Assembly: GCA_025362315.1 (NCBI GenBank)
Contig: JANYGP010000075.1
Coordinates: 62,001-126,000, forward strand
Reading direction: 5' to 3'
Source: Polaromonas sp.
GTDB lineage: Bacteria; Pseudomonadota; Gammaproteobacteria; Burkholderiales; Burkholderiaceae_C
DNA: 64,000 bases
Shown: piece after piece, positions 2,941 through 9,019 of the stretch
How positions within the stretch are numbered: position 1 is the stretch's first letter
Layout of the letters: each line of letters begins with the position of its first letter
Notes under the pieces: generated by a model
The model's database searches: none
Told to the model about the DNA's origin: nothing
Seen by the model: only the letters and a program-made list of their open reading frames with translations
Program-made: the position numbers and the translations under genes

Positions 2941-3435
2941 TTGGAGAATTCACTCCCCCCCATTCCCGCAAAACGCTATTTCACGATTGGTGAAGTCAGT
3001 GATTTGTGCGGCGTCAAACCTCATGTGCTTCGATATTGGGAGCAAGAGTTCACGCAGTTACGCCCGATGAAAAGACGTGGCAACCGCCGTTACTACCAAC
3101 ATCACGAAGTGCTGATGATTCGGCGGATACGCGATTTGTTATACGACCAGGGTTTCACAATCAGCGGCGCTCGCAACAAGCTCCATGAAATTGTCCAAAC
3201 CGAAACCGACAAACATCGCAACGGCGAGGTCATGCTTGATGGTATCGACGTTACTGACGCTTCCGATTCAGTTCTGGACAGCTTGGGCGAATTCGAAGAT
3301 TCAGTGGATTTTGAAGAAAGTGAGACGCCTGCAGATGCGCTAGATCTGCCAACAGGAATTGCTGCGCAGCAGCGGCTTCTGCTCGTTCGACGTGAGCTGT
3401 TTGAAATTCGGGATCTGCTGGGTTCAACGCACTGA
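2941..3435 (+). CDS. MerR family transcriptional regulator
   Basis: DNA-binding regulator of 164 residues. The N-terminal winged helix-turn-helix is plain: YFTIGEVSDLCGVKPHVLRYWEQEF at about residues 13-37 (helix-turn-helix and the RYWE signature), followed by the wing RRGNRRYY and HHEVLMIRRIRDLLYDQGFTI. A short acidic C-terminal tail with no cysteine metal site replaces an effector domain, so the ligand is unknown. The start is TTG at 2941; no ATG lies upstream in frame near it. The gene sits between ihfA and tRNA-Pro, a long-conserved synteny in beta- and gammaproteobacteria, which argues for a housekeeping rather than a metal-resistance role. Confidence 0.9.
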   Translation: MENSLPPIPAKRYFTIGEVSDLCGVKPHVLRYWEQEFTQLRPMKRRGNRRYYQHHEVLMIRRIRDLLYDQGFTISGARNKLHEIVQTETDKHRNGEVMLDGIDVTDASDSVLDSLGEFEDSVDFEESETPADALDLPTGIAAQQRLLLVRRELFEIRDLLGSTH

Positions 3436-3469: not shown

Positions 3470-3546
3470 CGGTGTGTGGCGCAGCCTGGTAGCGCACTTG
3501 CATGGGGTGCAAGGGGTCGAAGGTTCGAATCCTTTCACACCGACCA
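3470..3546 (+). tRNA. tRNA-Pro (anticodon GGG)
   Basis: The 77-base segment folds as a cloverleaf: acceptor CGGTGTG pairs with CACACCG, the discriminator A and CCA end are encoded (3543-3546), the anticodon stem CTTGC/GCAAG encloses loop ATGGGGT with GGG at 34-36, and the T loop is GTTCGAATC. It reads CCC and CCU proline codons. It has its own TATAAT box and is followed by a strong terminator. Confidence 0.97.
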
Positions 3547-4403: not shown

Positions 4404-5054
4404 ATGATTTATTTTAGAACTGACGAGGGACAACAGGCGGCATACAGCAGCCAATCAGCACTGCCACGCAAGCTCAAGTCAATCTTAAAAGTCATAGATG
4501 GCAAGACCTCAACGGAAGTATTTGAACGAAATTTACATTCATTTGGTGATGTTCGCGCAATTTTACGATCACTCGAAATGGCAGGTTTGTTGGGGTACAC
4601 AGCAGAAAGAGCGACAGACGACTTTGACGAAAACAATCATTTCGTGGATTTACATACAAAAAATCAGCAGGAACGCGATTGGTCATCAACCCACCATCCA
4701 CTGGACGTAGCGTCTTTGAAGACGAATCTGAAAAATGCTGTTCCATTTATCCCTACAGCACCTCCATCCGCGACCAGCAATCACTTAAACACCAAAGCGG
4801 CGAACTTTTCAAATAGTCCTGATAATTTTTCAGGAAATAAAGTTCTTGAGTCAGTTCTTAACGAGATGGCAGATTTTGTGCTGATGCATTCACCGGAGCA
4901 ATCCTTTCAGATCCTCAAAGAAATTGAAGAGATCACGTCGCTGGAGGTGCTGGCAGCCACTCTGGGTGGATATGAGCAAATGGTTTCGAATCTGGGGAAA
5001 GCAGGTGCCGATCACCTGAACAGCATCAAGTCAACATTGCGCGAGCATTTGTAA
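4404..5054 (+). CDS. Unrecognised protein 1 of the rhodopsin operon (winged-helix-like N domain)
   Basis: 216-residue protein that I do not recognise. Residues about 15-66 form a compact block (ALPRKLKSILKVIDGKTS ... FGDVRAILRSLEMAGLLGY) that looks like a small winged-helix fold: a helix ending in VIDG, then a pair of helices and a GLL turn. The same pattern recurs in the next two genes. A polar, low-complexity linker (about 70-140) leads to a helical C-terminal domain (LESVLNEMADFVLMHSPEQS to the end), whose layout resembles the C-terminal domain of protein 3. No signal peptide or membrane segment is seen. It is the first gene of the run leading to the opsin, after a 223-base AT-rich gap that must hold the promoter. 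A regulatory or assembly role is possible but is inference only. Confidence 0.75.
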   Translation: MIYFRTDEGQQAAYSSQSALPRKLKSILKVIDGKTSTEVFERNLHSFGDVRAILRSLEMAGLLGYTAERATDDFDENNHFVDLHTKNQQERDWSSTHHPLDVASLKTNLKNAVPFIPTAPPSATSNHLNTKAANFSNSPDNFSGNKVLESVLNEMADFVLMHSPEQSFQILKEIEEITSLEVLAATLGGYEQMVSNLGKAGADHLNSIKSTLREHL

Positions 5055-5093
5055 AGCAATGATCGTGAATACAAAATCGGGGAGCCGCAGTTT

Positions 5094-5432
5094 ATGAGCC
5101 AGCTTTCAGACGTGGTTTTTAACATCACACCAACAGGCTACTCTGCACTGCGCAGCGAGTCAGGTTCATTGGCTCTGTCCCTGAAAACAGTTTTAACAAT
5201 GGTTGACGGTATTTGTCCAGTGGCACAGTACGTGCCTTTTTTGAAGGCCTTCGACCCGCTCGAAGAGAAATTCCTGATACTTGAACGGATGGGATACGTG
5301 AAACGGGCTGGCACTATTTCTGCCAAAGCGGTTTCAGGATTTGAACAGTCGGTTTTGCAGGGCGATCCACTGTCTCGCTTGCCGCGCATTGATGCACACA
5401 ACGGCGAATCTGGCTTTATGCCGTTAATTTGA
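5094..5432 (+). CDS. Unrecognised protein 2 of the rhodopsin operon (single winged-helix-like domain)
   Basis: 112-residue cytosolic protein, function unknown. It consists almost only of the domain shared with its neighbours: LTMVDGICPVAQ with the VDG motif near residue 37-39, then helices ending in LEKMGY-like ILERMGYVKRAG. It lacks the linker and the C-terminal helical domain present in proteins 1 and 3, so it looks like a shortened paralogue. It starts with ATG 39 bases after protein 1 and its last four bases overlap the earliest possible start of protein 3, indicating co-transcription. Confidence 0.7.
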   Translation: MSQLSDVVFNITPTGYSALRSESGSLALSLKTVLTMVDGICPVAQYVPFLKAFDPLEEKFLILERMGYVKRAGTISAKAVSGFEQSVLQGDPLSRLPRIDAHNGESGFMPLI

Positions 5433-5452
5433 ATCCATTTTCAGGAGGCCAC

Positions 5453-6034
5453 ATGTCGACCATTTATCGCCAATCACTCAAAGGTATCGATGAGATAGCT
5501 TTCAAGTCAGGAGGTTTGCCACTTCGGCTGATGAGCTATCTGCTTGTTGTCGACGGTGATGCGTCTGTCGATCAATTGGTGAGCCGTCATCAAAACTTGC
5601 CGTCTATGCAAGCTGTTTTGCAAGGTTTGTGCAGCCAGGGATTCATTGAAGTGTCAGGTGTGGCAGCCAATGTGGTGGACATTGGCCAGATGCGCGTGTC
5701 CAACGGTGCCAACTTTTCAGCTCCTGCACAGACGCAGCCAACTCTGCAGCAGTCGAATAACAACTTTGCCTACTCGCCGCAGCTATCTGGCCAGCAATAT
5801 GCAGCGCCAGCCAACGCGTTTCCTGACCTGGACAACTACAAAAACAGCATGATTCGCGATGTCAGCGCTTTGCTGGGCGCAGATGCTGCGCCTGTCGTCA
5901 ACAAAATACAGGTTTGCCGTACGCGCGACGATCTCTTTTCAACCATGATGGGAATCAAAAAAATTATCACCATTTACACCAATCGGGACGCTGCAGAAAA
6001 GTTTGGATCCCGATATGCGGTTCTGTCCAGCTGA
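5453..6034 (+). CDS. Unrecognised protein 3 of the rhodopsin operon (winged-helix-like N domain)
   Basis: 193-residue protein, not recognised. The start at 5453 is preferred over an in-frame ATG at 5429 because a perfect AGGAGG lies 5 bases before it. The N-terminal block (LPLRLMSYLLVVDGDASV ... MQAVLQGLCSQGFIEV) matches the LP-LR-hydrophobic-VDG ... L-GL-GFIEV pattern of proteins 1 and 2. A glutamine/asparagine/proline-rich linker (about residues 80-125) joins it to a C-terminal helical domain (MIRDVSALLGADAAPVVNKI onward). Soluble, no signal peptide. The opsin gene follows after 60 bases, so the three proteins and the pump very likely share a transcript. Confidence 0.75.
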   Translation: MSTIYRQSLKGIDEIAFKSGGLPLRLMSYLLVVDGDASVDQLVSRHQNLPSMQAVLQGLCSQGFIEVSGVAANVVDIGQMRVSNGANFSAPAQTQPTLQQSNNNFAYSPQLSGQQYAAPANAFPDLDNYKNSMIRDVSALLGADAAPVVNKIQVCRTRDDLFSTMMGIKKIITIYTNRDAAEKFGSRYAVLSS

Positions 6035-6094: not shown

Positions 6095-6841
6095 ATGCAA
6101 TTCGACTTGATCATGGCCACGCAATTTTCTTTTTTAATGGGATTTATCGGCATGGTAGGAGGTGCCTACTATTTCACGCTGATCAAAAGCACGTTGCCCA
6201 TTGAACACCAGTCCAATGCGGTGACATCAGCCGTTTACTGCCTGATGGCAGCCATCATGTACGGCATCATCAATTACAAATACGGCATTGGTACGGACGC
6301 ACTTGCCAAGGGTGATTACCCAACTGTGCTGCGCTACGTTGACTGGCTTGTGACAACACCTTTGCTGGTGCTCAAGTTCCCGGAAATGCTGGGCGGTGAA
6401 GAGGCGCCAGCGGTCGCGCTTTTGGTGATCGTAGCCGACATCATGATGATCGTGTTCGGCTTTGCAGGGGAGACATCGATCAATTTTTCCAAGGGCGCAA
6501 CAGTCATTGGATGGGCCATGTTCGGGGTGAGCTGCCTGGCCTGGCTGTTCATTATCTTTATTTTGTACACCGCAGTGTCCAACGCAGCAACCAACAAGTT
6601 GGGGCCTGTAAAGGTCGGCTTAAGCCGTTTGAAGTTGTTCATCGTTCTCGGCTGGGCCATCTATCCGCTGGGCTACTTGTTGACCCTCATTTCAAATTCT
6701 GCAGATTTGAGAATTGGCCGCGAACTGGTGTACAACTTTGCCGACCTGTTTAACAAAGTCGGCTTTGGCATGGTTGCCATTTATACGGTTCGCCAGATTG
6801 TCCGTGAACAAAAAATCCGCGACGCAATGCAGCAGCTGTAA
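6095..6841 (+). CDS. Light-driven proton-pumping rhodopsin, DTK motif (Exiguobacterium-rhodopsin type)
   Basis: Seven-helix retinal protein of the inner membrane, 248 residues. Helix C reads RYVDWLVTTPLLVLKF, giving D83 (proton acceptor), T87 and K94, where most proteorhodopsins have Glu as proton donor; lysine at this place is the hallmark of Exiguobacterium sibiricum rhodopsin (ESR). Retinal would bind K221 in helix G (NFADLFNKVGFG), with D217 as second counterion and R80 conserved. Leu91 at the colour-tuning place predicts green absorption. From memory of the ESR sequence, its counterion partner His57 aligns with Met55 here, and the only histidine in the protein is H38 near helix B's start. 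Good RBS (CCAGGAG) precedes the ATG. An outward proton pump is the expected function. Confidence 0.95.
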   Translation: MQFDLIMATQFSFLMGFIGMVGGAYYFTLIKSTLPIEHQSNAVTSAVYCLMAAIMYGIINYKYGIGTDALAKGDYPTVLRYVDWLVTTPLLVLKFPEMLGGEEAPAVALLVIVADIMMIVFGFAGETSINFSKGATVIGWAMFGVSCLAWLFIIFILYTAVSNAATNKLGPVKVGLSRLKLFIVLGWAIYPLGYLLTLISNSADLRIGRELVYNFADLFNKVGFGMVAIYTVRQIVREQKIRDAMQQL

Positions 6842-6862
6842 TCGGCCGCGCATGCAGCCGTT

Positions 6863-6887
6863 GGCTTTGCATGGGTTGTGCAAAGCC
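6863..6887 (+). terminator. Hairpin between the opsin gene and crtY
   Basis: Perfect 9-base stem GGCTTTGCA/TGCAAAGCC with a 7-base loop, followed by GCTTTATT. It sits 21 bases after the opsin stop. The weak T tract suggests partial termination or 3'-end protection, which would let the opsin be made in excess over the retinal enzymes. Confidence 0.55.
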
Positions 6888-6930
6888 GCTTTATTGAATG
6901 CCTTTGTCCATACCTGGCGCTGACCGTAAC

Positions 6931-8085
6931 ATGACCGAGTGGGACGTGGTGATTGTCGGTGGTGGCCTGAGCGGACTTGCGCTGGCAGTTGAGTTAGCGC
7001 AACCTGAATGTGCTCACCTGCGGGTGCTGGTGATTGAAAAGCGCACAGAGTACCTTCGGGACAGAACCTGGAGCTACTGGTCCACGCAGCCACATCGTTA
7101 CTCTGCCCTTGAACGAAAGCGATGGCACAAATGGCGGGTTGGCTTTAATGGCCGGCACGCGGTGCAAAAAACCCGCCAGAACTCAACTGTTGCCTACTGC
7201 ACGATGGATGCGGATGTGTTTTATGCATATGCCCAGCAGCAAATTGCGGCTGCGCCAAACGTCCATCTCAAAATGGGCACGGCGGTTCGGGACATTCAGG
7301 ACGGACCTGTTCAGACCGTACTGCTGGATGACAACACCAGCCTGCGCAGTCACTGGGTGATGGACGCACGCCCCTTGAAAGCACCGGACGCCAACTCGCT
7401 GTGCCAGCACTTTGTGGGCTGGGAAATTGTCACCTCAAGTGATTGTTTTGACGACAGCACAGTTGAGCTGATGGATTTTCAGTCAACAAACACCGGATTG
7501 CACTTTCTTTACGTGCTTCCATACGGGAAGCGGCAAGCACTGATAGAAACAACGTGGATGTCAGCATATGCACATCGTCCCGACTACGAAGCAGAATTGC
7601 AGACTTATCTTCAAGACCGATATGGACTGACCACATACAAGCGCGTGTACCGTGAACAAGGCTGTCTTGATTTGCAGTCCATGCCGCGTACCTACGTAAA
7701 AACGGATGGCAGTCATAAAAGGGTTTCTCTTGGCAGGGCTGCAGGAACACTTCGTTCCTCGACAGGTTTTGCATTTCTCGAAACTCTGGCCGATGCCAGA
7801 CGCATCGCCGGCTGTTTTGCCACTGTTCCATTGGCCGATGTGCGCGTACCGCCTTATCGTCCCGACTGGCTGGACGGCTGGATGGACAAAATATTTTGTG
7901 GTGGACTCGTTGCCGACTGGCCTCGAGCGCCCGAATTTTTCCTGGCGATGTTCAAGGGCGTGGCTGCAGAAACCCTGGTTGCTTTTTTGACCGGCCGGCC
8001 AACGATGCTGCAGCGGTTGAGTGTCAGCCTGCAACTGCCCAAATGGCATTTCTTGCGTGCAGCCCATCGCGCTCTGACAGGTTGA
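6931..8085 (+). CDS. crtY: Lycopene beta-cyclase
   Basis: Membrane-associated flavoprotein that closes both ends of lycopene to give beta-carotene, the precursor of retinal. The N-terminus has the dinucleotide-binding motif VVIVGGGLSGLALA and an acidic strand end (VIEK), then the CrtY signature DRTWSYW near residues 45-51. Length 384 residues is normal for bacterial CrtY. The start at 6931 is preferred because the family begins right before the FAD motif; an in-frame ATG at 6898 would add 11 residues. blh follows after 4 bases, so the two are translated together. The earlier carotenoid genes crtE, crtB and crtI are not in this window. Confidence 0.93.
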   Translation: MTEWDVVIVGGGLSGLALAVELAQPECAHLRVLVIEKRTEYLRDRTWSYWSTQPHRYSALERKRWHKWRVGFNGRHAVQKTRQNSTVAYCTMDADVFYAYAQQQIAAAPNVHLKMGTAVRDIQDGPVQTVLLDDNTSLRSHWVMDARPLKAPDANSLCQHFVGWEIVTSSDCFDDSTVELMDFQSTNTGLHFLYVLPYGKRQALIETTWMSAYAHRPDYEAELQTYLQDRYGLTTYKRVYREQGCLDLQSMPRTYVKTDGSHKRVSLGRAAGTLRSSTGFAFLETLADARRIAGCFATVPLADVRVPPYRPDWLDGWMDKIFCGGLVADWPRAPEFFLAMFKGVAAETLVAFLTGRPTMLQRLSVSLQLPKWHFLRAAHRALTG

Positions 8086-8089
8086 TCCG

Positions 8090-9019
8090 TTGATTGAAAA
8101 AAGCAGGTTTTCGGCCTTGACAGCAATTGCATTATTTGCAGCGTTTGCAGTTGTGGGACTCCTGCTGTGGCTTGACCGGACAGTGCCGCTGGCTGGCTTG
8201 TGGGCGCTGCTGATGACCACTTTGACGGTTGGCTTTGTCCATGGTGCACTTGATGCAGTACTGTTGCCCCAACGCTTTGTAAAACGGGCGCAAATTGCTC
8301 TTATGTTTACAGCGTATTTTTTGCTGGTACTGGTGTTGGGCTGGATTTTAAGTGCTGTTGTCAGCGTGGCTTTGGCCGCATTGCTGATGATGTCTGTCTG
8401 GCATTTTGGCGAGCCTTATGGTCACTGGAAAGAACTGTCACTTCATCAAAGCCTGTTGACCCGCGCTGCTGTGGGTGGTGCGCCTGTCATGCTGCCGGTG
8501 TGGTTGGCACCTGCCCAGTTTGCAGCTACTCTGGCCGGTGTTATTCCCGAGTTGGGCCTGCGCGGGTGGCACGTGCTGGCCTGGGTATGGCTTGGCACGT
8601 TGGCAGTCTGGCTGGTGGTGTACGGCCTGCCTCAAATGCGCTCAATGCGCCGTGCATGGTACGAGGTGCTGGGCTGCACTGCGCTTTATATTGTTTTTTC
8701 GCCATTGATGGCGTTTGCAATCTACTTTGGTTTTTATCACGCGCCCGTACACATTTACCGGGTGTGGCAAGCGTGCTTTCCAGCTGCTTCGAAAATACCC
8801 GTTAAAAAGGCAGTTGCGGTCATCGCGTTGACCACTTTCATCACATGGCTCATGGGCGCGGGCTTGGGTTGGCGCTTTGTGTCAACCAGTGCTGAAACCC
8901 TTGACCCAGCAGCCGCCTTGCGTTGGCTGATCGTGAGTTTTGCAGCTTTGACAGCGCCTCATCTGGTGTTGATCAGCCTGTGCGCCAGGTTTTTAACGCG
9001 CCCAGAATTGCGTCATTGA
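8090..9019 (+). CDS. blh: Beta-carotene 15,15'-dioxygenase, Brp/Blh family
   Basis: Integral membrane iron enzyme that splits beta-carotene into two retinal molecules for the opsin. The family's histidines are all visible: GFVHGALD (first transmembrane block), SVWHFGE, GFYHAPVH and the C-terminal TAPHLVL. About eight hydrophobic segments across 309 residues fit the family. The start is TTG at 8090, 4 bases after the crtY stop. It is the last gene of the light operon; downstream is a 160-base gap carrying a dispersed repeat. Confidence 0.94.
   Translation: MIEKSRFSALTAIALFAAFAVVGLLLWLDRTVPLAGLWALLMTTLTVGFVHGALDAVLLPQRFVKRAQIALMFTAYFLLVLVLGWILSAVVSVALAALLMMSVWHFGEPYGHWKELSLHQSLLTRAAVGGAPVMLPVWLAPAQFAATLAGVIPELGLRGWHVLAWVWLGTLAVWLVVYGLPQMRSMRRAWYEVLGCTALYIVFSPLMAFAIYFGFYHAPVHIYRVWQACFPAASKIPVKKAVAVIALTTFITWLMGAGLGWRFVSTSAETLDPAAALRWLIVSFAALTAPHLVLISLCARFLTRPELRH

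Follow-up and report, generated by a model that had tools for sequence, protein, structure and literature searches.

The window analyzed here is a stretch of 64,000 nucleotides from a Polaromonas sp. contig (JANYGP010000075.1, positions 62,001 to 126,000; assembly GCA_025362315.1), in which three genes for soluble proteins, P1, P2 and P3 (the trio), precede a microbial rhodopsin gene and two genes of carotenoid and retinal synthesis (Table 1). An earlier note on this DNA had claimed three open reading frames separated from each other and from the opsin by 39, under 25 and 60 bases. All three are real and lie on the forward strand at the claimed positions, and the gaps measured 39, 20 and 60 nt. 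The most likely start of P3 is the ATG at 5453 behind an AGGAGG sequence, rather than the TTG at 5429. The approximate domain limits of P1 are those suggested by alignment. On the 5' side of the trio lie pheT-, ihfA- and MerR-like ORFs and a divergent Nudix-like ORF, named by reading their translations. A tRNA-Pro(GGG) gene occupies positions 3470–3546, ~0.86 kb before P1, and tRNA was the only Rfam match at gathering scores between positions 3400 and 9300. Repeats of 16 nt or more were absent around the trio–opsin unit. The G+C content of the trio–opsin stretch, 0.48, lies below the mean over the window's 2.4-kb segments (0.55) and is compatible with an old acquisition.

Table 1. Features of the trio–opsin locus (positions in the window)
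Feature	Position	Strand	Description
P1 gene	4404–5054	+	216 aa soluble protein; N-domain ~1–66, variable linker, C-domain ~144–216
P2 gene	5094–5432	+	112 aa; N-domain alone
P3 gene	5453–6034	+	193 aa; N-domain, conserved NVV-x-I-x-QMRV-x-NG stretch, Q/P-rich linker, C-domain
Opsin gene	6095–6841	+	248 aa; ESR-like, proton-pump type, D-T-K motif
Opsin C-tail, VREQKIRDAMQQL	6800–6838	+	Candidate docking site; conservation is observed, docking is putative
Hairpin 3' of opsin	6862–6888	+	Possible terminator or attenuator
crtY-type lycopene cyclase gene	6898–8085	+	PF05834, E 2.7e-46
blh, beta-carotene 15,15'-dioxygenase gene	8090–9019	+	Retinal synthesis; PF15461 and TIGR03753, both above cut-offs

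Kinship of the three proteins

Pairwise BLASTP related P3 to both P1 (E 2e-4) and P2 (E 4e-4), and the pair P1–P2 was not significant (E 0.68). Family profiles were then compared with hhalign, using alignments of 45 P1 (A1), 34 P3 (A2) and 26 P2 (A3) sequences. All three pairs matched: P1–P2 at E 5.7e-8, P1–P3 at E 2.7e-6 over 168 columns covering both the N- and the C-domain, and P2–P3 at E 1.8e-4. The mutual similarity proposed from the letters alone thus holds for every pair, and the reach of the P1–P3 match into the C-domain agrees with the proposal that these two share a linker and C-terminal domain and that P2 is the N-domain alone.

The proteins were also taken to belong to no described family, and no convincing match was found to contradict this. 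Pfam matched no family to P1–P3 at E ≤ 1; NCBIfam gave E 0.1 for P1 and 0.04 for P3, both far short of cut-off; PADLOC returned nothing for any of the three, and PHROGs a single match, to P3 at E 0.059. A Pfam scan of relatives (90 of P3, 91 of P1, 26 of P2) produced scattered weak matches only, such as HTH_20 in 4/90 P3 relatives (best E 0.06) and DprA_WH in 6/91 P1 relatives (best E 0.015). The stronger scores among P3 relatives, TFIIA (0.0017) and DUF2076 (0.0003), are suspected to stem from the Q/P-rich linker. A likeness of P2 to designed pentatricopeptide repeats (E 1.8e-11) was rejected as an artefact of repeats, since none of the stretches passes by itself. Assignment of a winged-helix-type fold to P1–P3 would be a guess from sequence pattern. 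None of the three proteins contains a 19-residue window above 1.6 on the KD hydropathy scale, i.e. a transmembrane-like segment.

The linked opsin and its C-terminal tail

The gene downstream of P3 encodes a Bac_rhodopsin protein (Pfam E 1.8e-35) whose closest solved structure is Exiguobacterium sibiricum rhodopsin (ESR; 4hyj, E 2.7e-61), with 45% identity over 228 aligned positions. The six opsins found linked to the trio (see below) are 44–49% identical to ESR over 228 columns, and all six retain the Asp acceptor, the Thr, the Lys donor and the Schiff-base Lys. ESR is described as a DTK proton pump in passages of PMC8387761 and PMC10154332, and a passage of PMC10138546 describes its His57 as interacting with Asp85 and influencing the photocycle. 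In contrast to ESR, the linked opsins have Met at this position in five cases, that of the window included, and Ile in the sixth; they also differ in having a conserved C-tail and the upstream three-gene set. Because His57 is replaced in 6/6, we call the opsin ESR-like but not an ESR orthologue in respect of this residue. The D-T-K residues and the Schiff-base Lys fit the earlier identification of a proton-pumping rhodopsin, and the linked opsin is predicted to be an ESR-like DTK proton pump.

Each of the six linked opsins ends 27 residues past the Schiff-base Lys. The first 16 residues, counted from this Lys, are 86% identical both in the linked opsins and in 22 other opsins; these bear a retinal Lys, come from the genomes sampled at family, genus and order level, and were taken with different tails only. 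Beyond the 16th residue, the linked opsins continue with 12 residues of the type VREQKIREAMxxL that are 83% identical pairwise, compared with 1–9 residues and 37% identity (210/231 pairs long enough) in the 22 others. This count leaves aside the unclassified opsin L125 and opsins that do not fit the helix pattern, among them L134, L135 and L020–L027, the last lacking the Lys; the tail motif was absent from the ends of these sequences as well. The opsin sequence of L017 is incomplete. C-termini of microbial rhodopsins face the cytoplasm. Since P1–P3 have no transmembrane-like stretch, contact between the trio and the opsin tail is plausible, on an argument built on six related opsins.

Co-occurrence of the trio with one opsin clade

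P1, P2, P3 and the opsin were collinear in 6/6 loci, with gaps of –4 to 87 nt. The five loci other than the window (L001 from genome G821; L002–L005 from G064, G035, G279 and G207) belong to Polaromonas, Comamonadaceae and Brachymonas MAGs and were confirmed by a scan in which the P1 alignment was run against the contigs of GTDB r220; the six genomes represent four genera. Because that scan began from P1, searches starting from the opsin are the fairer test of linkage, and all six linked opsins were reached by these too.

Among 399 family genomes, 21 had a PF01036 match, above cut-off in 18; the other three look like chance. Five of the 18 (the window's genome G000, G035, G064, G207 and G279) encode an opsin 79–100% identical to that of the window, and the trio adjoins it in all five. 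The remaining 13 carry opsins 23–30% identical, five of them xanthorhodopsin-like (G216, G261, G274, G307, G337) and eight lacking the Lys that binds retinal, and none of these genomes had a full-length P3 among the at most eight preliminary candidates scored per genome. With scoring at the same depth, full-length P3 (E < 1e-80) was found in 5/399 family genomes, exactly those with the ≥79% identical opsin. The genus sample gave the same picture: 17 of 87 genomes had an opsin match, two of them ESR-like (100 and 91%), and P3 (E < 1e-20) was present in exactly these two and in none of the other 15 (28–38% identity, the 38% match being a fragment). In the order sample (399 genomes), 13 genomes beside the window's own had opsin matches, at most 34% identical and in G468 and G726 looking like chance, and no trio genes lay within the flanks examined, which reached up to 1.5 kb to either side. 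Plasmid records gave no P3 match, with opsins of 25–30% identity in six, and none of the 80 pattern matches on viral contigs encoded a P3 relative. When the best 120 P1 and best 120 P3 matches were compared, 27 equal source-contig sizes of at least 2 kb were found, the window's own included, against a mean of 0.6 and a maximum of 3 in a shifted control, which suggests that P1 and P3 genes sit together on many metagenomic contigs too. Recurrent opsin linkage, anticipated by the earlier note for the Burkholderiales, was thus observed in these samples, where 6/6 genomes with this opsin clade carry the trio in order.

Over ungapped columns, the window and the five other loci are 38–55% identical in P1 (35–50% by tblastn), 42–65% in P2, 58–76% in P3 and 79–91% in the opsin, P3 being the best conserved member of the trio across the six loci. 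In the same comparisons dN was 0.06–0.71 versus a dS of 1.2–5 or saturated for trio plus opsin, and 0.16–0.71 versus at least 1.9 or saturated for P1–P3 alone. The linkage between trio and opsin appears from these values to be old and selected. The 3' side of the opsin varies, holding crtY-blh in the window, blh in L001, a second opsin in L002 and L005, and a crtI-like ORF (by eye) in L003 and L004; the constant core is the trio plus the opsin.

Because of the spacing and conserved order, we infer that this core is one polycistronic unit; a single transcript running on through crtY-blh to 9.0 kb is unproven. The hairpin between opsin and crtY has 12 pairs but does not exceed chance in the window, where terminator-like sites numbered 8 versus 7.1 expected by shuffling. 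The best hairpin after the window's opsin (–14.3 kcal/mol) was within the range of 90 control stretches (5% point –19.5, strongest –25.5 kcal/mol), and that of L004 (–11.3 kcal/mol) was unremarkable too. In L001 (–20.6), L002 (–26.6) and L005 (–24.7 kcal/mol) the hairpin after the opsin is stronger and passes the 5% point, in a comparison that favours the test loci because the control stretches were sampled on a coarser grid; that of L003 (–26.9 kcal/mol) falls inside the next gene. Given the strong hairpins in L001, L002 and L005, trio and opsin may form a unit by themselves in 3/6 loci.

Other light-related genes were seen in these genomes. A second, xanthorhodopsin-like opsin, ~25% identical, directly follows the trio and the ESR-like opsin in L002 (L112) and L005 (L115), and G035 holds a second opsin on a separate contig. 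The opsin-family proteins L020–L027 (above the Pfam cut-off; genomes G396, G061, G205, G173, G240, G275, G158 and G338) have Gln or Leu at the retinal-Lys position (NQIAF, NLVAF and the like), and the fragment L159 of G817 was noted along with them; Lys-less rhodopsins of beta-proteobacteria have already been described. The window's genome also encodes two PufL/PufM-type reaction-centre proteins (L164 and L165, G000:C50:69725–71396; Photo_RC E 1e-105 and 2e-97), on a contig where a BLUF-like ORF and genes resembling crtI and crtB also lie (by eye), possibly reflecting dual phototrophy or contamination (6.29% listed for this genome). Away from the window, G000:C45 (L163) has a crtZ-like hydroxylase gene with crtI- and crtB-like neighbours (by eye), which could provide the carotenoid backbone missing from the window's crtY-blh.

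Relatives of the trio without opsins were surveyed as well. The P3 profile matched in 43/399 family genomes at E ≤ 0.01, the five opsin-linked ones included (at most eight preliminary candidates per genome). Orthologues of P1 were found in the five opsin-linked family genomes and in G040, where a full-length P1 relative, not followed by a P2, neighbours MgtE-type genes; this genome, 74% complete, gave no opsin match. An unnamed stand-alone two-domain Burkholderiales family (A7, 12 sequences; YRKTxKGxxEIATR ... VDGKR ... LGP ... F) is homologous to P3 over its full length (hhalign probability 99.5, E 8.7e-23, 166 columns) and to P1 in the N-domain only (71 columns, E 7e-12). Unlike the trio, its genes lie near peptidase M61 (9), enoyl-CoA hydratase (9), DsbC (4) and DUF3108 (4), counted among 55 neighbour ORFs at 12 loci. 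A likeness of A7 to designed helical repeats was set aside as a repeat artefact. The P1 N-domain also matches, at E 9e-12, paralogues with a hydrophobic C-terminal end. L106, L108, L109, L110 and L123 are of this kind, with the same N-domain and a coiled-coil-like stretch, and L109 and L110 adjoin topoisomerase-subunit-like and RidA-like ORFs (by eye). At L107:1076–8510 a P1-type paralogue belongs to a series of co-oriented genes that also encode a 1357-aa protein (no Pfam match), a protein of the 2Fe-2S type and one with a V4R domain. Homologues away from opsins, which the earlier note named as counting against its reading, are thus common in the wide sense, but full-length P3 accompanied only the ESR-like opsin among the family and genus genomes sampled.

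For the N-domain, a tree was built from 83 rows (13 P1, 14 P2, 13 P3 and 43 others, the last omitting rows from four opsin loci, L063, L064, L066 and L067) and 79 columns; its branches are long and its root split is weak (73/72). P1 groups with non-opsin paralogues in a 26-row branch (support 100/98), and P2 and P3 form separate branches. Local triplication of one gene was set aside on this branching, which is not proof. The topology favours recruitment of the trio over a single local triplication.

Possible roles of the trio

Fixed order and joint inheritance with the opsin raise the possibility that the pump has dedicated partner proteins. Our preferred reading, to which we give an even chance, is that P1–P3 are a dedicated cytoplasmic partner set for one DTK rhodopsin clade in Comamonadaceae-type Burkholderiales. 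Trio homology, gene order, co-occurrence, dN well below dS, the lack of transmembrane-like segments and the conserved C-tail are directly supported; the existence of relatives of all parts in genomes without opsins weakens the reading. Block transfer would preserve gene order too, but without selection it would hardly do so across sequences this diverged. Spacing and conserved order suggest that the trio would be made just before the opsin, from a single polycistronic unit. P1, P2 and P3 would associate via their common domains and work on the cytoplasmic side of the pump, the conserved C-tail being their most likely target, with an effect on assembly, clustering, anchoring or coupling to another cell component. 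An unlikely elaboration makes pump and sensor a single device: three paralogous adaptors, drawn from a Burkholderiales superfamily not yet described, would bind the conserved C-tail of a DTK pump that lacks the counterion His, and would report on or control the photocycle of this pump.

Signal relay is a possible and more surprising form of the trio's role: the proteins would sense the photocycle or light state and inform a regulator of it, in the manner of the soluble transducer that serves some sensory rhodopsins. Operon-like placement and the conserved opsin tail would fit, as would P1-type paralogues beside a histidine-kinase-like ORF (L104, by eye), a response regulator (L105) and the V4R and 2Fe-2S proteins of L107. 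The opsin, however, retains pump-type residues (acceptor, Thr and Lys donor), the unit contains no kinase, cyclase or chemoreceptor, no effector can be named, and neither a chemoreceptor-type nor a known transducer was found adjacent (Pfam E ≤ 1, hydropathy of P1–P3), so that we regard a relay as doubtful. The earlier note had also proposed light-responsive regulators. Three winged-helix DNA-binding regulators of opsin or carotenoid genes would account for the pattern that precedes the GLL/GFI turn in P1–P3, which we take to resemble a winged helix, for sub-threshold matches to HTH_20, MarR_2, DprA_WH and YtcD, and for the MarR-family label of a P1 relative in one JGI record. But the helix expected to read DNA, its limits assumed from sequence pattern, is acidic (mean net charge –0.96 in P1, –0.65 in P2 and –0.68 in P3; 91, 26 and 90 sequences), and no 8-mer was common to at least four of five upstream regions, a weak test in which shuffling expects none either. 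Five named patterns had no match in six upstream regions, and some N-domain paralogues have a C-terminal end that looks membrane-spanning by eye. Because of the acidic helix and the lack of a common upstream motif in this weak test, DNA binding by P1–P3 is disfavoured, and we consider the regulator proposal quite unlikely.

Handling of retinal or carotenoids, with the trio passing retinal to the opsin or regulating Blh or CrtY, would make sense of the joint encoding of crtY and blh with the trio in the window. We judge it improbable: the downstream genes vary between loci while trio and opsin are constant, and at L117, L119, L120 and L121, from the same family, xanthorhodopsin-like opsins accompanied by crt-blh clusters do without the trio. 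That the three genes are passengers, upstream by history with no tie to the opsin, might be argued from the commonness of the superfamily in family genomes and from the solitary P1 relative. Linkage in 6/6 loci and four genera at near-saturated dS, and the failure to find full-length P3 apart from this opsin in the sampled genomes of family and genus, make this highly improbable.

Two known systems resemble the proposed partner set. Flotillin-associated rhodopsins (FArhodopsins), as described in passages of PMC10308929, are an opsin clade with a flotillin neighbour gene and a DTT, DTL or DNI motif, and the authors suggest there that a missing flotillin gene may explain a non-working DTT-type opsin in E. 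coli. Both cases, as far as those passages go, join a given opsin clade to a constant co-oriented non-carotenoid neighbour, in genomes also holding ordinary opsins; whereas the partner there is one flotillin gene, here the opsin has the motif DTK, is flanked by P3 (no Pfam match) and crtY, and is preceded by genes for three soluble proteins of an undescribed family. The second comparison is of working principle only: for Anabaena sensory rhodopsin, a soluble transducer located in the cytoplasm is encoded together with the opsin; P1–P3, by contrast, match no Pfam family (E ≤ 1), and the opsin here has pump residues. Rhodopsin-bearing Polaromonas MAGs have been reported in a passage of PMC9021309. 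The titles, abstracts and passages of open-licence literature that were searched contain no description of such proteins beside a rhodopsin.

Proton-pump rhodopsins are usually regarded as self-sufficient, with retinal as their sole need. If the partner-set reading is true, the rhodopsin of these Burkholderiales would be a light pump with dedicated protein partners. The linkage of the trio to the opsin, a known neighbour, also offers a functional handle on a Burkholderiales superfamily for which no Pfam or NCBIfam model was found.
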